Below are positions 1 to 39,599 of a stretch of DNA of 64,000 bases, in pieces. The stretch comes from Georgenia sp. M64 (GTDB lineage Bacteria; Actinomycetota; Actinomycetes; Actinomycetales; Actinomycetaceae). The notes beneath the pieces were generated by a model that saw only the letters and a program-made list of their open reading frames with translations, made no database searches and had not been told where the DNA came from. Position 1 is the first letter of the stretch. Every line of letters starts with the position of its first letter. Where the stretch lies: positions 3,072,599-3,136,598 of the forward strand of contig NZ_CP145809.1 in NCBI RefSeq assembly GCF_038049925.1, given 5' to 3'. The translations under genes and the position numbers were made by a program.

Positions 1-798
1 GTCGACGGCGAGCGCACGGAGCTGTCGGGCCGGGTGCTGGGGAACTGGGTGACCAAGGCGGCGAACCTCCTCGTCGAGGAGGCCGACGCCGGCCCTGGCA
101 CGGTGGTCGTGCTCGACCTGCCGGTGCACTGGCGCACGCTCGTGTGGGCGCTGGGCAGCTGGGTGGCCGGCGCGCAGGTCACACTGCCGTCCGAGGACCT
201 CCTCGAGGAGGACGAGGACGCCGACGCCCCGGACGTCGTCGTGACCTCACGACCCGGCGAGTCCCCGGGCGAGGACGACGCGGAGCTGGTGCTCGCCGTC
301 GCGCTCCCGGCGCTCGCGATGCGGTGGGACGGCGACCCGCTCGGCGCCAACGTCGTGGACGCCGCGGCCGAGCTGATGACCTTCGGCGACCAGCTGGGCT
401 ACGTCAGCGAGCCCGAGTCCACCGACCTCGCGCTCGTGACCGAGAACCTCGAGGTGACCTACGGCGACCTCGCCGGGTGGGCCACCGGCGCCGCCGAGGA
501 CGACGAGATCGACGCCGACGACGTCGACCTCGAGCCGGGGTACGAGGACGAGCTCGACTCGATCGGCGGCCCGGACGACGACGCGGCGGTGGTGCCCGCC
601 GAGGAGGACGACGTCGACGAGCCCGCGTCGGCCGCGCCGGTCCGGGCCCTGCTCGCGCCCGACGACGTCGCGGACCTCCTGGAGCAGGCCGTGCGCACCT
701 GGCACGGCGGCGGCTCGGTGGTGCTCGTCGAGCCCGGGGTGCCGGCGGACGTGCGGCGCCGGGTCGCCGAGGACGAGCGGGTGGACAGCCGCCTCTAG
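1..798 (+). CDS. TIGR03089 family protein (5' end missing)
   Basis: The reading frame is open from the first base, so the N-terminus lies outside the window; a GTG at 34 is probably internal. The visible part contains NWVTKAANLL, then VVVLDLPVHWRTLVWALGSW, typical of the actinobacterial TIGR03089 family, which resembles an N-terminal piece of an acyl-adenylate enzyme and has no established function. Unusual here is a strongly acidic stretch in the middle (about residues 165-205 of the visible frame, rich in Asp and Glu) that looks like an insertion. The stop codon TAG at 796-798 overlaps the stop of the convergent gene within the tetranucleotide CTAG. In other actinobacteria, as I recall, this family sits near LCP and rhamnose genes, which fits the locus. 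Family assignment is by recognition of motifs; role unknown. Confidence 0.75.
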   Translation, partial: VDGERTELSGRVLGNWVTKAANLLVEEADAGPGTVVVLDLPVHWRTLVWALGSWVAGAQVTLPSEDLLEEDEDADAPDVVVTSRPGESPGEDDAELVLAVALPALAMRWDGDPLGANVVDAAAELMTFGDQLGYVSEPESTDLALVTENLEVTYGDLAGWATGAAEDDEIDADDVDLEPGYEDELDSIGGPDDDAAVVPAEEDDVDEPASAAPVRALLAPDDVADLLEQAVRTWHGGGSVVLVEPGVPADVRRRVAEDERVDSRL

Positions 799-1382
799 AA
801 CTCCCACGCCGCCCGGGGGTCGGCGGCGTGGACGACGCGGCCGTGCGCGGTCGCCGAGTCCAGGACGACCAGGCCGCTGACCTCCTGACCGTCCTCGACG
901 AAGGGCGGGAGGAGCTGCTCCGCGTCGAAGCACGCGAACGACGACGCGGTCGCGACGAGCTGCTGGGTACGCCCGTCGGGCGCACGGATGACGAAGCTGC
1001 CGGCGTCGACACGGGCCGCGTCCTCGTCACTGCCGCCTGCGGCGAACAGCGCCGTCACCTCGGCGACGACGAAGTGGGCGAGCTCGGGCTCGGCCGTGGC
1101 GCCGCCCCGGGCGGGGCAGCTGGCCGCCACGGTGAGCGAGTCCACGGTGAGGGTGAGGACACCACCGTCCGGCGCGGCGACGTCGACCGGGGTGCCGAGG
1201 GGGACCGAAGGGGGCGAGGGCTGGTCGGTGGGCGGCGCGGTGGCCGTCGGCGGCGCGGCCGACCCGGACGTCGTGCCCGTCGGGGTGGCCGGGGGTCGCC
1301 CCTCGGGGCGTGCCGACAGGAGGACGACGACCACCACGAGCACGACGACGAGGGCGCCGAGCCCGACGGGCGTGCGTCTCAC
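795..1382 (-). CDS. secreted or membrane-anchored DUF4352-like protein, copy 2
   Basis: A 195-residue protein. The GTG start at 1382 overlaps the stop of the upstream gene as GTGA, so translation is probably coupled; longer upstream extensions would overlap that gene. Residues 1-28 are a hydrophobic segment after VRRTPVG, either an uncleaved anchor or signal peptide, followed by a Thr/Pro/Ser-rich linker (about 30-60). The globular part is paralogous to the preceding gene: both have a first Cys in (A/G)SCPxRG, a (H)F(L/V)V(V/A)(D/E)V strand, a second Cys in (A/W)(A/G)CF, then QLLPPFV and a C-terminal WEF. The two cysteines probably form a disulfide outside the cell. The fold resembles DUF4352-type immunoglobulin-like secreted domains, but this is a pattern match only. 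Function unknown. Confidence 0.7.
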   Translation of the reverse strand: MRRTPVGLGALVVVLVVVVVLLSARPEGRPPATPTGTTSGSAAPPTATAPPTDQPSPPSVPLGTPVDVAAPDGGVLTLTVDSLTVAASCPARGGATAEPELAHFVVAEVTALFAAGGSDEDAARVDAGSFVIRAPDGRTQQLVATASSFACFDAEQLLPPFVEDGQEVSGLVVLDSATAHGRVVHAADPRAAWEF

Positions 1383-2155
1383 CCGCCGAACTCCCACTCC
1401 CACCCGTCCGCGCCGAGCGGCCGGTAGACGAGCGTGCCCGAGGTGTGGGCCGTGTCGAGGACGACCTTGCCGGCCCCGTGCTCCGCGGGCCCGACGAACG
1501 GGGGAAGCAGCTGGGACATCTCGAAGCACCCCCACGACGCCGTCGTCGCCGTCCCGGCCTCGGTGACGCCGTCCGGCCCCACGATGCCGAACGCCTCCGC
1601 CCCGAGCGGCATGAAGCCCTCGCGGCCCTCGGCCACGGCGGCGAGGACGTCCACGACGAGGAAGTGCCCGTTCTCGGGCGGGACGGAGACCCCGCGGCCC
1701 GGGCACGAGCCGACGACAGCGATCTCGGTGACGGTGAGCTCGAACGCGGGGACGCCGTCGGGGCCCGTGAGCCCGGCGGGCTCGCCCACGGCCTTGACGA
1801 CGTTGCCGCGCCCGGAGAGGACGACCCGGTCGCCGGCGGGCTCCTCGGCGGCGGCGGGCAGGTCCGGTGCCGCCACCTCGGCCGCCCCGGGACCCGGGTC
1901 CGCCGTGGCCGGGGCGTCGGTGCGCTCAGGCGCCGCCGGGGCCGTCGCGGCCGGGGCGTCGGTGCGCTCAGGGGCCGCCGGGGCCGTGGCCGAGGCGTCG
2001 GTGGGCCGAGGGGCCGCCGGGGTCTCCGAGGACTGCGCGACCGCTGGGGCGTCCGTGGCCTCCGACGACTGCGTGGCGCCCTGGGCCGTCGCGCCCAGGG
2101 ACGCGCCCAGCACCGCTGCGGCCGCGATCCCTGCCAGGACCCTGGTGGTCACCAT
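1379..2155 (-). CDS. secreted DUF4352-like protein with Ala/Pro/Thr repeat linker, copy 1
   Basis: A 258-residue protein starting with MVTTRVLAGIAAAAVLGA, a clear signal peptide. Its ATG at 2155 overlaps the last bases of the upstream repeat-protein gene (stop at 2151-2149), and its own stop overlaps the GTG of the next gene, so the three genes form one translationally coupled unit. After the signal comes a low-complexity linker of about 100 residues containing 14-residue repeats (PERTDAPAATAPAA), encoded by 42-bp direct repeats at 1911 and 1953. The C-terminal 130 residues are the same domain as in the downstream gene, with paired cysteines, QLLPPFVG and a terminal WEWEF. The linker would let the domain reach through the wall. 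No enzymatic motif is visible. Confidence 0.72.
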   Translation of the reverse strand: MVTTRVLAGIAAAAVLGASLGATAQGATQSSEATDAPAVAQSSETPAAPRPTDASATAPAAPERTDAPAATAPAAPERTDAPATADPGPGAAEVAAPDLPAAAEEPAGDRVVLSGRGNVVKAVGEPAGLTGPDGVPAFELTVTEIAVVGSCPGRGVSVPPENGHFLVVDVLAAVAEGREGFMPLGAEAFGIVGPDGVTEAGTATTASWGCFEMSQLLPPFVGPAEHGAGKVVLDTAHTSGTLVYRPLGADGWEWEFGG

Positions 2156-3363
2156 CGCGTGAAGTCCCCCGTCGTGATGAGTGTGCCGCTGCTGCGGGCG
2201 TAGTCCTGCCACCGCTGGGTGGCCACGTACACCCACGCGGACGGCGCGTGGAGGGTGGGCCGCTGCGTGCGGTAGTAGTAGCGCTGGCTGTCCGGGGGCA
2301 GGGAGGGGTCGTAGAGCTCGTAGCGGTCCAGGCGGGCGATCATGTCCCAGTACGACGCGGACGGGAAGTCCATCAGCTCACCGACCGCGCCGTACTCCCC
2401 GGCGCTCGGGACCGCCCACGGGAAGGTGTAGCCGGGGATCATGTACAGGTCCATGTACGGCATCCGGGTGAGCTGCTCCCAGCTCGTGCGGCCCTCCACG
2501 AGGTAGTGGGCGCTCTGTCCGCTGCGCAGCGTCCCGTAGGTGAAGACGGGTGGCTGCGGGTCCGGTGCCGGGGCCGGCTCCGGCGCGGGTGGCGGTCGAC
2601 GCACCCCGAGGCCGGTGCCGCCGGCCGCGTCGAGACCGCCCGAGAAGGCGTGGTCGGAGTCCCGGCCGTAGGTCACCACCTTCTCGGCGATCGCCCCGCT
2701 GAAGGTGTTCTTGAGGTGGAACCGGTTCCCCCGGCGCACCGCCAGGGTGTCCACCCCGTCCCCGTCCCAGTCCCCCACCAGCACCTCGTCGTCCACGGTG
2801 CCGTACGACTGGGAGAAGTTCGCGATCGCCCCCGAGAACGTGTTCTTGAAGTGGTACCGGTTCCCCCGGCGCACCGCCAGGGTGTCCACCCCGTCCCCGT
2901 CCCAGTCCCCCACCAGCACCTCGTCGTCCACGGTGCCGTACGACTGGGAGAAGTTCGCGATCGCCCCCGAGAACGTGTTCTTGAAGTGGTACCGGTTCCC
3001 CCGGCGCACCGCCAGGGTGTCCACCCCGTCCCCGTCCCAGTCCCCCACCAGCACCTCGTCGTCCACGGTGCCGTACGACTGGGAGAAGTTCGCGATCGCC
3101 CCCGAGAACGTGTTCTTGAAGTGGTACCGGTTCCCCCGGCGCACCGCCAGGGTGTCCACCCCGTCCCCGTCCCAGTCGCCGACGAGCGCACCGTCGTCGG
3201 TCAGCCCGAAGGTCTGGTGGACGGTCGTCGGGGCGCCTGCCGGGTCGCTGCGGAAGTACTCGTTCCCGCTGCCGCCGATCTCCCCGCCCTTCGCCGCCGC
3301 CGGTCCTGCGCCCACGGACAGCACCAGGGTGAGGGCCGCGACGGCGACCAGACCGGTGCGCAC
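2149..3363 (-). CDS. secreted GDWDGDG-repeat protein with C-terminal gamma-glutamylcyclotransferase-like domain
   Basis: A 404-residue protein from the GTG at 3363, chosen because a Shine-Dalgarno GGAGAG lies 5-10 bases upstream and a signal peptide (VRTGLVAVAALTLVLSVG) follows at once. Residues 30-270 consist of 45-residue repeats, each with a VGDWDGDG loop (DxDxDG, an EF-hand-like calcium-binding signature as in FG-GAP/VCBS propeller blades) and a RRGNRYHFKNTFSG strand. Three repeats are identical at the DNA level. After a Pro-rich hinge the last ~125 residues begin with FTYGTLRSGQ and resemble the AIG2/GGCT fold (YGTLRxG), which in the cytosol cyclises gamma-glutamyl groups. An exported GGCT-like domain is unusual; its substrate is unknown and may be a wall component. 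First gene of a three-gene unit with the two DUF4352-like proteins. Confidence 0.75.
   Translation of the reverse strand: MRTGLVAVAALTLVLSVGAGPAAAKGGEIGGSGNEYFRSDPAGAPTTVHQTFGLTDDGALVGDWDGDGVDTLAVRRGNRYHFKNTFSGAIANFSQSYGTVDDEVLVGDWDGDGVDTLAVRRGNRYHFKNTFSGAIANFSQSYGTVDDEVLVGDWDGDGVDTLAVRRGNRYHFKNTFSGAIANFSQSYGTVDDEVLVGDWDGDGVDTLAVRRGNRFHLKNTFSGAIAEKVVTYGRDSDHAFSGGLDAAGGTGLGVRRPPPAPEPAPAPDPQPPVFTYGTLRSGQSAHYLVEGRTSWEQLTRMPYMDLYMIPGYTFPWAVPSAGEYGAVGELMDFPSASYWDMIARLDRYELYDPSLPPDSQRYYYRTQRPTLHAPSAWVYVATQRWQDYARSSGTLITTGDFTRW
2746..3150. repeat. three identical 135-bp tandem copies within the repeat-protein gene
   Basis: Copies begin at 2746, 2881 and 3016 and show no differences on reading. Partial, diverged copies flank them (2701-2745 and from 3151). 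Each encodes one 45-residue GDWDGDG module, so the array can gain or lose modules without breaking frame. Confidence 0.95.
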
Positions 3364-8730: not shown

Positions 8731-10653
8731 ATGCGCGCACCCCTTGCCCGGCTCGTCCTCGCGCTGCTGGTCGCGGCCGCGACGCTGCTCCCGGCACCCA
8801 CCGCCGGCGCCGCCACCGAGCGCTACCCCGTGCCCGCGTCCGGCGAGTGGGCGGTCGACGGCCGGGGCTGGGGCCACGGCCGGGGCATGTCCCAGTGGGG
8901 CGCCAAGGGCGCCGCCGAGGCGGGGCTGACCCACGCCCAGATCCTCGACTTCTACTACCCGGGCACCACCCTGTCCGCCCTGGGCAGCTTCCCGGGCACG
9001 ACGGCGAACCCGACCATCGGCGTGGGGCTGACCTCCCTCGGCCTGCTCAGGACCACCACGGTGACGCTGTGGACCCCGGCCGGCCAGGGGTCGGTGCGCG
9101 TCGAGGTCGTCGGCGGGGCGGGGGTGACGCTGGGCGCCGGCCGGCTCACCGTCACCAGGTCGGGTGACGACTTCACCGTCGTGCACGCCGCCACCGGCGC
9201 CCGGCACACCCTCACCGGCGCCGCTGTGCGCGTCTCCACCGCCGACGGCGTCGTCGTGGCCCGCAGCTCGACGACCGGCACCTGGTACCGCGGCTCCGTG
9301 CGGCTGGCGGACGTGTCGAGCGGCGACGACGCGTTCGACGTCGTCAACGACGTCCCGCTCGAGGAGTACCTGCGCGGCGTGGTCCCCCAGGAGATGCCCG
9401 CGTCGTGGAGTGCCCAGGCGGTGCGCGCCCAGGCGGTCGCCGCGCGCAGCTACATGCTCGCCGAGGGGCGGCGCACGGCCCGCTACGACACCTGCGACAC
9501 CACGGCCTGCCAGGTCTACGGCGGGCGGGCGACGGTGGACACCGACGGCCGCGTGATCACCCCCCGCGAGCACGCCCTCTCCGACGACGCCATCCGGGTG
9601 ACCGCCGGTCAGGTGCGCACGTACGGCAGCGCCGTGGCCCTGACGCAGTTCTCCTCGACCAACGGCGGCTGGTCGGTCGCGGGCGGGGCGAGCACCCCCT
9701 ACCTCGTCTCCCGCGCCGACCCCTACACGGGCACCGCGGCCGGGGACACCCGCACGGTCTGGTCGACCACGCTCAGCGCGACGACGGCGGCCCGCTACTG
9801 CCCGTCCGGCCAGACGCTCTCCGCCCTCCTCGTCACCGGCCGCGACGGCAACGGCGCGCTCGGCGGGCGCATCACCGGACTGTCCGTGGAGTGCAGCGGC
9901 GGCGTGCACGCCGTCCCCCGCGCGTCGTGGTCCCTGGGGATGCTCTCCCCCTGGTGGCGACCGCAGGACCCGCCGCACACGTTCTACCTCTCCACGACCT
10001 TCTCCTCCACCGCGGACATCGTCTTCGACGCCGGCTACGGCGACGACGCCGCCCTCGTCGGCGACTGGGACGGCGACGGCACCGACACCGTCGCGCTGCG
10101 CCGGGGCTCGACGTTCCTCGTCCGCAACTCCAACGACGCCGGCCCGCCCGACGTCACCTTCACCTACGGCCGCGCCGACGACGTGGTCCTCGTGGGCGAC
10201 TGGGACGGCGACGGCGTCGACACCCTCGCGGTGCGCCGCGGCGGCGAGTACCACGTGAAGAACTCGGTGACCTCCGGCGTCGCCGACGTCGTCGTGCGGT
10301 ACGGCCGCGCCGACGACGAGGTGCACGTCGGCGACTGGGACGGCGACGGCGTCGACACCCTCACCGTGCGGCGCGAGGCGGTCTACTACGTCAAGAACTC
10401 CCTCGAGGGCGGCCCGGCGGACGTCGAGGTGCGCTACGGGCGCCCCGACGACGTCGTGCTCACCGGCGACTGGGACGGCGACGGGGACGACACCCTCGCG
10501 GTGCGCCGCGCCAACGTCTACTACCTCGCCAACGCGCTCGAGGGCGGCGCGGCCGACGTCGTGGTGTCCTACGGGCGGGCCACCGACACCGTCCTCGTCG
10601 GGGACTGGGACGCCGACGGCGACGACACCCTCGGGGTGCACCGCAGACCCTGA
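8731..10653 (+). CDS. secreted SpoIID/LytB-domain protein with C-terminal GDWDGDG repeats
   Basis: A 640-residue secreted protein: signal peptide at 1-30 (MRAPLARLVLALLVAAATLL), then GRGWGHGRGMSQWGAKGAA, a signature of SpoIID/LytB proteins, and the SpoIID core around 205-270 with EEYLRGVVPQEMP and RAQAVAARSYML. SpoIID of Bacillus is a lytic transglycosylase cutting denuded glycan strands, and LytB-type domains enhance amidases, so a role in wall-glycan trimming is likely. From about residue 430 there are five 45-residue modules with GDWDGDG or GDWDADG loops (Gly444, 489, 534 and onward at 45-residue spacing), probably Ca-binding wall- or glycan-attachment modules. Same module as in three other proteins of the window. 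ATG 8731 has GGAGA upstream. It lies between rfbD and rfbC. Confidence 0.85.
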   Translation: MRAPLARLVLALLVAAATLLPAPTAGAATERYPVPASGEWAVDGRGWGHGRGMSQWGAKGAAEAGLTHAQILDFYYPGTTLSALGSFPGTTANPTIGVGLTSLGLLRTTTVTLWTPAGQGSVRVEVVGGAGVTLGAGRLTVTRSGDDFTVVHAATGARHTLTGAAVRVSTADGVVVARSSTTGTWYRGSVRLADVSSGDDAFDVVNDVPLEEYLRGVVPQEMPASWSAQAVRAQAVAARSYMLAEGRRTARYDTCDTTACQVYGGRATVDTDGRVITPREHALSDDAIRVTAGQVRTYGSAVALTQFSSTNGGWSVAGGASTPYLVSRADPYTGTAAGDTRTVWSTTLSATTAARYCPSGQTLSALLVTGRDGNGALGGRITGLSVECSGGVHAVPRASWSLGMLSPWWRPQDPPHTFYLSTTFSSTADIVFDAGYGDDAALVGDWDGDGTDTVALRRGSTFLVRNSNDAGPPDVTFTYGRADDVVLVGDWDGDGVDTLAVRRGGEYHVKNSVTSGVADVVVRYGRADDEVHVGDWDGDGVDTLTVRREAVYYVKNSLEGGPADVEVRYGRPDDVVLTGDWDGDGDDTLAVRRANVYYLANALEGGAADVVVSYGRATDTVLVGDWDADGDDTLGVHRRP

Positions 10654-12373: not shown

Positions 12374-12452
12374 CCCGGACCGGTGACCTCAGCCCCTTGT
12401 CCCGGTGACCACCGCGGCGGATCATGGTGGCACCGGGACGAAGGAGTCCGCC

Positions 12453-13844
12453 ATGGCCGCCGTGGCAAGGTCGATGCGAGGGGTGTTCGCCGGCGTCGTC
12501 GCGGGGGTGCTCCTGATGTTGCCGGGGATGACCGGCGCGGCGGCCGAGCCCGACCGTCAGGTCGTCACCCGCGGCGCCCAGTGGTTCGTCGCGGGCGGAC
12601 CGAGCTTCACGTACGGGCGCAGCGCGGACGTGCAGGTCATGGGCGACTGGAACGACGACGGCGTGCGCACCCCCGGGGTCTTCCGGGCCGGGACCTGGTA
12701 CCTGCGCAACACCCTCGGCTCCGGCGCGGCGGATCTCGTCGTCGCGTTCGGCCGGGCCGGTGACCGCCCGGTCGTGGGCGACTGGGACGGCGACGGGCGC
12801 ACCGGGATCGGCGTCGTGCGCGGCAGCACGTGGTTCCTGCGGGGCACCCCGACGAGCGGGGTCGCCGAGTCCAGCTTCCGCTTCGGCCGACCCGGGGACA
12901 CCGCCGTCACCGGGGACTGGGACGGCTTCGGCGGGGCCGGGATCGGCGTCGTCCGGGCCGGCGGGTGGTACCTGCGCAACACCCCCGACGGCGGCGGCGC
13001 GAGCATCTCCTTCGGCTACGGCATCCCCGGTGACGTGCCGGTCACCGGGGACTGGGACGACGACGGTCGCACGGGGATCGGCGTGGTTCGCGGGGCCACC
13101 TGGCACCTGCGCAACGTCGCCTCCACCGGTCCCGCGGACCTCGTGTCCATCTACGGCCGGTGCGGGGACGGCGTGCTGAGCACCCACGCCGCCCGGACGG
13201 AGGCGGGTGTGCCGCCCTCCCTCCGGGGCACGGAGTGGTCCGTCCTGCCCACGACCGAGCGCGTCGTCGCGCTGACCTTCGACGCGGGCGCGAACGCCGA
13301 CGGGATCCCCTCGATCCTGTCCACGCTCCGGGCCACGGGGACGCCGGCCACCTTCTTCCTCACCGGCGCGTGGACGCAGTCCTTCCCCTCGTTCGCCGCC
13401 GAGGTCGGCCAGGCCTACCCGGTGGGCAACCACACCCAGAGCCACCCGGACCTCACCACGCTTCCCGACGCCGACGTGCGGGGCCAGGTCACCTCGGCCG
13501 ACACGGCGATCCGCGCGTTCGCCGGCACCGATCCCCGCCCGTGGTTCCGCTTCCCGTTCGGGGCGCGGGACGCCCGGACGATCTCGCTGGTGAACTGCCT
13601 GGACTACGGCTCGGTCCGCTGGACCGTGGACACCCTGGGCTGGCAGGGCACGTCCGGCGGGCAGAGCGCCTCGACGGTGGTCAGCCGGGTGCTGGCGAAC
13701 CTGCGTCCGGGCGAGATCGTCCTCCTGCACGTCGGGTCGCACCCCACCGACGGCAGCACCCTCGACGCCGACGCCCTGCCGGCGATCATCCGTGAGGTCG
13801 AGGCGCGCGGGTACCGCTTCGTCGACCTCGACGACTACCGCTGA
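12453..13844 (+). CDS. secreted polysaccharide deacetylase (NodB fold) with N-terminal GDWDGDG repeats
   Basis: A 463-residue secreted protein; ATG 12453 is chosen for the AAGGAG Shine-Dalgarno and following signal peptide (about 1-31). Residues 50-235 hold four 45-residue modules with GDWNDDG, GDWDGDG, GDWDGFG (degenerate) and GDWDDDG loops at 64, 109, 154 and 199, each followed by WYLRN/WFLR strands. Residues 265-455 are a NodB-type deacetylase: TFDAG with Asp277, GNHTQSH with the zinc ligands His327 and His331, RFPFGARD, DTLGW, and LLHVG. The second Asp of the usual TFDD is Ala, a common variant. Likely removes acetyl groups from wall polysaccharide or peptidoglycan. Unlike the SpoIID protein, here the repeats come first. 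Confidence 0.87.
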   Translation: MAAVARSMRGVFAGVVAGVLLMLPGMTGAAAEPDRQVVTRGAQWFVAGGPSFTYGRSADVQVMGDWNDDGVRTPGVFRAGTWYLRNTLGSGAADLVVAFGRAGDRPVVGDWDGDGRTGIGVVRGSTWFLRGTPTSGVAESSFRFGRPGDTAVTGDWDGFGGAGIGVVRAGGWYLRNTPDGGGASISFGYGIPGDVPVTGDWDDDGRTGIGVVRGATWHLRNVASTGPADLVSIYGRCGDGVLSTHAARTEAGVPPSLRGTEWSVLPTTERVVALTFDAGANADGIPSILSTLRATGTPATFFLTGAWTQSFPSFAAEVGQAYPVGNHTQSHPDLTTLPDADVRGQVTSADTAIRAFAGTDPRPWFRFPFGARDARTISLVNCLDYGSVRWTVDTLGWQGTSGGQSASTVVSRVLANLRPGEIVLLHVGSHPTDGSTLDADALPAIIREVEARGYRFVDLDDYR

Positions 13845-37994: not shown

Positions 37995-39599
37995 TCAGAA
38001 GGCCCGGTGGATCCCGAGGGTCTCGGTGCCGTCGCCGTCCCAGTCGCCGACCAGGCCGGTGTCGGTGGAGCGCTCGTAGGTCACGGTGCGGTCGGCCGCG
38101 CCGCCTGCGAGGCTGTCCCTCAGGTACCAGACGTTCGCACGCCGGACGCCGACGGTGGTGTCGCCGTCGCTGTCCCAGTCGCCCGCGAACGGCTCGTCGG
38201 TGGCCCGGCCGTAGCTGAAGACCACGCTCGCCGCGCCGCCCGTGAGGGTGTTCGACAGGTAGAAGGTCGACAGCCGGCGCACACCGGGGGTGTCGTCGCC
38301 GTCGCCGTCCCAGTCACCGGCCAGCGCCGCGTCGGTGGAGCGCCCGTAGGTGAGGGTCACGTCCGCCGCGCCACCGGTCAGGGTGTTCTTGAGGTACCAG
38401 GTGCTGCCTCGGCGCAGCCCGATGGTGTCCGTGCCGTCGCCGTCCCAGTCCCCCACGACGATCTCGTCGGTCGAGCGGCCGTAGCCGAAGACGATCTCGG
38501 GCACGCCGGTGGTGTTGGAGTTGCGCAGGAAGAACAGGTTCTCGTAGCGGTAGCCCGGCGTGGCGGTGCCGTTGCCGTCCCAGTCGCCCATGAAGACCTC
38601 GTCCTCGGGCAGGCCGTACTCGAAGAGCGTCGTCGCCGTGCTCCCGAAGTCGTCGGCGAGGAAGAACCCGGTCTGCTGGACGGGCTCGGGGAAGCTCGGC
38701 GTACCGAGCGCGATGTCGAGGACGGCCGTGCTGTAGTCCAGGACGTAGGGGACGTGGAGGGGTCCCTCGCCCTCCGCGTCGTCACCGAGCAGCGCGTCCT
38801 GGAGGAAGACCACCGACTCGAAGGGCACCGTGAAGATGAGCCGGTACCAGCCCACGCCCGGGTTCGCGACGCCGCTCGGGGCGCCCCAGTTGAAGCCGTA
38901 GATGAGCTTGCCGGAACCGTTGACCTCCGAACCCATGAGGATCTCGGGCACGACGACCTCGCTGTAGGTGCCCGTCTCCTCCTCGGCCTTGAGGATGGTC
39001 AGGGTCGCGCCCGGTGCGTAGACCATCGGCGCCAGCTCGACGGCGATGCCGTCGGTGCCGAAGAGCTCCTCACGCATCTCGCCCTCGAGCGAGATGACGT
39101 TGTAGCCCATCATGGGCTCGAACGCGGCGGGGTCGTGGGCGAAGAGGTTGACCTCGACCCGGATCGGCTGCGTGCCGGTGCCGGGGAAGGTGTGGCTGAC
39201 CAGGTTGTCGCTCCACTTGACGTCGGTGACGACCGGCTCGTCCGTCACCACCGTCCGGTCGGCACCCCACATGTCGGCGCCGAACTCCGGGTCGACGGTG
39301 CTGAGGTACGTGTCGGAGCCGACACCGGTGAAGTAGTCACCGTCCGGCACGTCGTCGCCGGGGAGGTCGTTGGTGTAGTCGGCGTTCCCGGTGGGCCCGG
39401 CCGGCACGGTGACGGGGTTGAACAACCCCGATGCGACGTCGTCGTCGGCAAGGATCACGGGCACGGAGAGGTTCTTCGTGCCCTCCTCCTCTTCCTCCTC
39501 GGGCGGCGCGGCCAGGGCGGCGCTGCCCCCGACGACTACCAGCGCGATCGCGGTGACCAGGGACGTCGTCCCGCGGCCCGCGCGCATGTGCACACTCAT
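37995..39599 (-). CDS. secreted protein of unknown function with C-terminal GDWDGDG repeats
   Basis: A 534-residue secreted protein: signal peptide about 1-30, then a poly-Glu run (EEEEEE). Residues about 40-305 are an unrecognised beta-rich region; visible stretches include VEVNLFAHDPAAFEPMMGYN, VELAPMVYAPGATLTI and WYRLIFTVPFESVVFL. Residues about 320-534 hold five 45-residue modules with loops GDWDGNG, GDWDGDG, GDWDGDG, GDWDSDG and GDWDGDG and WYLKNTLTGGAA-type strands, like those in the SpoIID, deacetylase and GGCT-like proteins. The N-terminal domain is therefore the candidate active or binding unit. GAAGGG lies 11-6 bases before ATG 39599; an internal ATG four codons later is possible. 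Confidence 0.75.
   Translation of the reverse strand: MSVHMRAGRGTTSLVTAIALVVVGGSAALAAPPEEEEEEGTKNLSVPVILADDDVASGLFNPVTVPAGPTGNADYTNDLPGDDVPDGDYFTGVGSDTYLSTVDPEFGADMWGADRTVVTDEPVVTDVKWSDNLVSHTFPGTGTQPIRVEVNLFAHDPAAFEPMMGYNVISLEGEMREELFGTDGIAVELAPMVYAPGATLTILKAEEETGTYSEVVVPEILMGSEVNGSGKLIYGFNWGAPSGVANPGVGWYRLIFTVPFESVVFLQDALLGDDAEGEGPLHVPYVLDYSTAVLDIALGTPSFPEPVQQTGFFLADDFGSTATTLFEYGLPEDEVFMGDWDGNGTATPGYRYENLFFLRNSNTTGVPEIVFGYGRSTDEIVVGDWDGDGTDTIGLRRGSTWYLKNTLTGGAADVTLTYGRSTDAALAGDWDGDGDDTPGVRRLSTFYLSNTLTGGAASVVFSYGRATDEPFAGDWDSDGDTTVGVRRANVWYLRDSLAGGAADRTVTYERSTDTGLVGDWDGDGTETLGIHRAF

Follow-up and report, generated by a model that had tools for sequence, protein, structure and literature searches.

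Gamma-glutamyl cyclotransferases are known for the intracellular breakdown of glutathione and gamma-glutamyl amines, and the GGACT and GGCT enzymes are known as cytosolic, single-domain proteins. In the GGCT reaction, a gamma-glutamyl residue cyclizes to 5-oxoproline, its free alpha-amine attacking its own gamma-carbonyl. GGACT is known for L-glutamyl substrates, and its substrate class is gamma-glutamyl-epsilon-lysine, with the same bond as that of a Glu gamma-carboxyl on a Lys side chain. The GGACT site consists of Tyr7, Gly8, Thr9, Leu10, Ile50, Glu82, Tyr88, Tyr115 and Tyr143, according to the accessible part of one report (PMC2954230), and the accessible part of another names Glu82 as the acid/base (PMC7022552). 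Among the titles and abstract openings of the open-licence literature, we found no description of an exported bacterial GGCT.

A gene for a protein of this kind is present in the window, that is, the whole stretch of 64,000 nucleotides of Georgenia sp. M64 that was analyzed. Its features, with the basis of each assignment, are the following:

2149-3363, minus strand: gene for an exported GGCT-domain protein of 404 amino acids, GTG start at 3363, stop TGA at 2151-2149 (open reading frame translation and Pfam)
3292-3363, minus strand: signal-peptide-like N-terminus, residues 1-24, ending between AAA and KGG (sequence and hydrophobicity script)
2687-3198, minus strand: tandem GDWDGDG repeats (135-bp period, 3.8 copies, 96% matches)
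2152-2559, minus strand: GGACT/AIG2-like (PF06094) domain with the end of the linker, residues 269-404 (Pfam and PDB profile matches)
2317-2319, minus strand: codon of the predicted catalytic Glu349, E81 of the domain, in LDRYE (alignments to human GGACT Glu82)

The N-terminus of the GGCT protein reads VRTGLVAVAALTLVLSVGAGPAAA followed by KGG, and resembles a signal peptide both on visual inspection and in a simple hydrophobicity script. Behind it come four near-identical GDWDGDG repeats, a Pro/Ala linker and the C-terminal PF06094 domain; the part after the linker begins PVFTYGTLRSGQ and runs to the end of the protein. The PF06094 (GGACT) profile matched residues 273-401 over its positions 1-118 of 120 (E 3.3e-14, 53.9 bits versus a cut-off of 22.8), a score at which a chance origin of the sequence match is excluded. 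Thus, the earlier note, which had read the frame as carrying an export signal, GDWDGDG modules and a C-terminal GGCT/AIG2-like domain, was right on all of these points. The window protein is the sole PF06094 match in its own 4.18-Mb genome. An NCBIfam scan of the protein gave no credible match, and FG-GAP_3 (PF13517) stayed under its cut-off in it (17.3 bits versus 26.9). A promoter scan found none at the locus, and the single terminator-like site was on the opposite strand. The near-identity of the repeat units at the DNA level is a sign of recent tandem duplication.

To place the protein among its relatives, we searched for the domain in genomes of the same family and in samples of the order and class. 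Within the family, 32 of the 213 genomes had a match; by reading of the open frames, 24 of these carry a long protein with N-terminal modules and 8 a short, cytosolic-type match, two of the latter (G205 and G210) being classed by open-frame length only. The genus to which the window belongs has the gene in 3 of its 10 genomes in this set. The order sample had the domain in 12 of 396 genomes, five of them non-family genomes with an exported form (G223, G240, G284, G336 and G505), and the class sample in 31 of 394, mostly as short proteins from a single genus. The named relatives comprise Actinobaculum suis, a member of the Actinomycetaceae, A. massiliense, Neoactinobaculum massilliense and Flaviflexus massiliensis. 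The hydrophobicity script recognized a signal-like N-terminus in 23 of the 29 exported relatives; L087, L097, L099, L102, L103 (which is cut by a contig end) and L106 did not pass it. Besides GDWDGDG repeats, the Pfam modules on the exported relatives include SLH (L094, L110) and SH3_3 (L112), and FG-GAP_3 was clearly over its cut-off in L093, L098, L101, L108 and L110. Because of the export signal, the surface-type repeats and the SLH, SH3b and FG-GAP modules of the relatives, the extracellular, wall-side role suggested in the earlier note is well supported as far as location goes.

We next compared the domain with proteins of known structure. A profile of 17 exported domains, searched against the PDB, matched Escherichia coli YtfP best (1xhs, 6e-7), followed by PH0828 (1v30, 8e-5) and mammalian GGACT (2kl2, 1.2e-4; 1vkb, 1.5e-4), with weaker GGACT matches to 3jub (8e-4) and 3jud (3e-3). 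Both PDB profile alignments pair residue 349 (E81 within the domain) with Glu82 of GGACT, so that the catalytic Glu for which the earlier note had called is present. A 10-row profile including cytosolic members placed Y95 on Tyr88 and Y111 on Tyr115 of mouse GGACT, these equivalents being positions counted by hand from the printed alignment. In a 67-row alignment, Y8, G9, L11, D78, E81, Y95 and R97 are invariant in all 29 exported and all 38 other rows. The YG(T/S)L loop is YGTL in the window domain, with T at position 10 in 25 exported rows and S in the other 4, and the distal Tyr, Y111, is kept in 28 of the 29. Together, these alignments support the assignment of the window domain to the GGACT/AIG2 type with the whole predicted catalytic set: the YGTL loop, the catalytic Glu, the following Tyr-x-Arg and the distal Tyr each have an aligned counterpart in GGACT (A2LD1; 3jub, 1vkb, 2kl2). 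However, whereas the known enzymes are cytosolic and single-domain, the window domain is predicted to be exported, on surface modules and with a constant partner.

An AlphaFold model of the GGCT domain from a five-row alignment reached a mean pLDDT of 58.7. This poor model had no Foldseek match at E<=0.001, and in VIA-align it gave Z>=2 with 4 of 454 chains, all of them mammalian GGACT (3jud, 3jub, 1vkb and 3juc; Z 2.1-2.2). Because the model is too poor to prove the fold, the lack of stronger structural matches is uninformative, and membership of the family rests on the sequence profiles.

Next to the GGCT operon are rmlA, rmlC and rmlD, a glycosyltransferase gene and two genes of the GDP-mannose dehydratase family, together with genes for a SpoIID-domain protein and for a polysaccharide deacetylase. 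The GDWDGDG repeat family occurs at 14 places in the genome. Two of its carriers belong to the same rhamnose/GDP-sugar cluster, namely, the SpoIID-domain protein (8731-10653, plus strand; PF08486, E 7.3e-27), with C-terminal repeats, and the protein with the polysaccharide deacetylase domain (12405-13844, plus strand; PF01522). An exported 534-residue protein in the window (37995-39599, minus strand) also ends in GDWDGDG repeats, its N-terminal ~310 residues being without a Pfam match, and elsewhere in the genome the repeats are found on the protein at L156 (905-2836, plus strand), which we take to be subtilase-like from its GTSMAAPH motif. Compared with these actinobacterial FG-GAP/VCBS-like GDWDGDG proteins (SpoIID-domain, deacetylase and subtilase-like), the GGCT protein has the same repeats but a different enzyme attached to them.

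Among 20 neighboring proteins scanned at 7 other loci, wall or glycopolymer types comprised a nucleotidyl transferase and an LGFP protein at L091, LytR-CpsA-Psr and GT2 proteins at L093, and Amidase_2 and GT2 proteins at L104, and a neighbor at L110 is a surface protein with SLH and FG-GAP modules. No such types were present among the scanned neighbors of L096, L097 and L112; the pairing with wall-polysaccharide genes is thus not universal, which counts against the wall-tethered reading set out below. These surroundings bear on the possibility that the protein is a secreted scavenger or detoxifier, cutting external gamma-glutamyl peptides, such as glutathione or gamma-Glu-Cys, for nutrition or redox purposes. 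Its complete catalytic set would suit such a role, as would the animal-associated life of several gene-bearing relatives (Actinobaculum). However, the enzyme is not simply secreted but is carried on SLH, SH3b or FG-GAP modules, and wall-polysaccharide genes surround the locus in the window and at L091, L093 and L104. Among the neighbors that were scanned for other purposes, no transporter for gamma-glutamyl peptides was noticed; we regard scavenging as unlikely.

In a quick tree of 68 rows, a branch with SH-aLRT 94 sets the 29 exported rows apart from the others. Because the tree was midpoint-drawn, they are described here as one group and not as a rooted clade. The same branch separates them from E. 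coli YtfP (1xhs) and the cytosolic GGCT-like proteins of Streptomyces and Actinomycetaceae, which have the same catalytic residues (38 of 38 rows) but are short, with no export signal seen. The exported group has a C-terminal helix-strand extension of its own on the GGCT domain, and its domains diverge down to ~33% identity to that of the window. The extension, together with the free swapping of the amino-terminal modules, would be compatible with a non-enzymatic domain, that is, a GGCT fold serving as a binding or structural module in which conservation of the catalytic residues reflects ligand binding and not catalysis. We consider this quite improbable, since invariance of the catalytic residues across such divergence is an enzyme-like pattern.

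Beyond what the earlier note had described, the exported GGCT lineage has a constant exported partner of the MPT63 fold, the gene of which overlaps the end of the GGCT gene. In the window, two copies of this one exported family follow the GGCT gene on the same strand:

1379-2155, minus strand: partner gene A, exported MPT63-fold protein, ATG at 2155-2153 (profile match, hydrophobicity script and model)
795-1403, minus strand: partner gene B, second copy of the partner family, with a membrane-anchor-like N-terminus and a tentative start codon (profile match)

The GGCT stop and the ATG of partner gene A overlap by 7 nt, within ATGGTGA. To assess the generality of this arrangement, we searched with a partner profile built from four seeds, the two window copies, L087 and L089, so that the seed loci match by construction; the gene order is independent of the choice of seeds, even though these were drawn from loci in the set. 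The partner was paired with the exported GGCT in 28 of the 29 loci. In 20 it is the next gene downstream, with gaps of -53 to 168 bp, and in L095 it lies directly upstream. At L109, which is interrupted by the end of a contig, the partner is on the contig holding the rest of the domain (G052:C59). In the remaining six, L098-L103, the partner is fused to the C-terminus of the GGCT protein, with full-sequence E values of 6.3e-7 (L098), 5.3e-3 (L099), 3.0e-3 (L100), 8.4e-6 (L101), 3.6e-5 (L102) and 2.2e-5 (L103), the matches of L099 and L100 being weak on their own and counted as fused because they are colinear with L101-L103. Such natural fusions would predict contact between the two domains. 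The exception, L114, has no adjacent partner and only a very weak match elsewhere in the genome.

At E<=1e-5, the partner profile matched 22 of the 213 family genomes, 18 with and 4 without an exported GGCT; the other 6 of the 24 family genomes with an exported GGCT have the fused form. The GGCT is not a universal companion of the partner, since G086, G098, G100 and G199 have the partner without an exported GGCT, in the form of distant, stand-alone lipoproteins. In the order sample, 23 of 396 genomes matched the profile. Most of these matches were weak (1e-6 to 1e-21) and came from genomes that lack an exported GGCT; the five genomes with matches better than 1e-30 all have one. Distant partner-family lipoproteins stand alone, not beside a GGCT gene, at L135, L136, L137 and L144.

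Three partner proteins had no Pfam match at E<=0.1; in NCBIfam, the partner gave only weak, implausible matches far under the cut-off, and against PDB sequences there was no match. The model of partner A was good (pLDDT 90.5, pTM 0.85) and matched MPT63 (1lmi) with a Foldseek E of 6.7e-5 and a VIA Z of 11.4 (rmsd 4.0, 128 aligned). It also gave Z values of 11.1 with YxkC in an integrative YxkC-DacA model (9a4z), 10.5 with YcdA (4r4g) and 10.4 with YjhA (3cfu), against about 6 for unrelated rows; Foldseek E values for this group ranged from 6.7e-5 to 4.1e-3. On this model, the partner has the MPT63/YxkC/YjhA beta-sandwich fold. Because it lacks a Pfam or NCBIfam sequence match, we describe it as sharing an MPT63/DUF4352-like fold and do not file it as a member. 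Like the partner, MPT63, YxkC, YjhA and YcdA are all of exported or lipoprotein types; however, the partner is at best 12-14% identical to them and its family is defined by an invariant Cys pair. One of these cysteines is kept in 28 of 28 aligned rows and the other in 27 of 28, with one gap, and the pair would fit a disulfide.

MPT63-fold members include a well-known secreted Mycobacterium antigen, and to our knowledge the proteins of the MPT63/YxkC fold have no assigned function. DacA is a D-Ala-D-Ala carboxypeptidase. Since DacA is a peptidoglycan enzyme, one protein with the fold of the partner, YxkC, has been modeled on a peptidoglycan enzyme, as far as entry 9a4z indicates. The open-licence literature yielded no paper treating YxkC with DacA and nothing useful on MPT63/DUF4352.

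At the level of sequence, then, the lineage combines an export-type N-terminus, surface-type repeats, the complete set of predicted GGACT catalytic residues and near-constant pairing with a partner, and among these the predicted surface location and intact catalytic site are well supported. The best explanation, which we put forward tentatively at somewhat less than an even chance, is an exported, surface-tethered enzyme of the gamma-glutamylamine cyclotransferase type that works with the exported MPT63-fold partner. Through the repeats, the enzyme would stay attached to the wall of the cell that makes it. With Glu349 as the acid/base, a gamma-linked glutamyl residue would cyclize by attack of its free alpha-amine on its gamma-carbonyl, and the products would be 5-oxoproline and the free amine. 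For the partner, a role in docking the enzyme or in presenting its substrate is probable.

With regard to the substrate, the gamma-glutamyl bonds of ordinary peptidoglycan stem peptides, on which the earlier note had built its suggestion of wall activity, were set aside on chemical grounds. A cyclotransferase needs a free alpha-amino group as the nucleophile, and stem D-Glu cannot react because it is N-acylated, its amine being blocked by L-Ala. In interpeptide bridges, Glu is presumably gamma-linked to Lys, and such a Glu would be a chemically better substrate than stem D-Glu. The accessible part of one report gives an L-Lys<-L-Glu bridge for Beutenbergia, shared with Bogoriella and Georgenia (PMC3035217), and that of another gives Lys-Lys-D-Glu bridges for Varibaculum and others (PMC6113628). 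The D configuration of Glu in Varibaculum-type walls counts against a bridge substrate, set against the L-glutamyl substrates of GGACT. The likeliest substrate may nevertheless be Glu gamma-linked to the side-chain amine of Lys, in bridges that are uncrosslinked or already cut. We offer it as a proposal. In full, this proposal would have a wall-editing cyclotransferase, together with its MPT63-fold partner, strip bridge Glu from peptidoglycan Lys side chains as 5-oxoproline, a scheme that we regard as possible but doubtful.

In the alternative that the enzyme edits a wall glycopolymer, acting on the rhamnose- or mannose-derived polymer of the neighboring genes and freeing its amino sugars or amine substituents of gamma-glutamyl groups, much as BtrG removes a gamma-glutamyl protecting group, the adjoining rmlA, rmlC, rmlD, GDP-mannose dehydratase-family and glycosyltransferase genes would be accounted for, as would LytR-CpsA-Psr and GT2 at L093 and the amidase and GT2 at L104, but we found no known gamma-glutamyl decoration of such polymers and the neighborhood is not conserved at every locus, so that this is very improbable.

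Returning to the surface-tethered cyclotransferase, a lineage with intact predicted catalytic residues and a constant exported partner points to an extracellular gamma-glutamyl substrate, of which the envelope is the likeliest site. That an exported GGCT on surface-binding-type repeats is encoded alongside another exported protein suggests that the trimming or remodeling of the wall may include a new step. If bridge Glu is indeed removed, the enzyme would set which strands stay cross-linkable or would finish the turnover of bridges, and it would do so by intramolecular cyclization and not hydrolysis, a chemistry not counted among those of peptidoglycan-editing enzymes. Wall remodeling would then extend past hydrolases, transpeptidases and transglycosylases. 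The same reading, if true, would provide a function for one member of the widespread MPT63-fold exported proteins, and the pairing itself offers a handle on the MPT63/YxkC fold.

An origin of the exported GGCT from mobile elements was considered and rejected: there was no phage match, and the plasmid records numbered only three, all from Streptomyces with ordinary annotated gamma-glutamylcyclotransferase family proteins. One viral contig had a partial match (34% identity). A further candidate, L115 (5288-6784, minus strand), was dropped before the 29 exported relatives were counted, because it is apparently a cytosolic regulator and not exported; it is an unusual fusion in which a GGACT domain follows an ABATE domain and a zinc finger of the CGNR type (zf-CGNR), and in the tree it lies with the non-exported rows.
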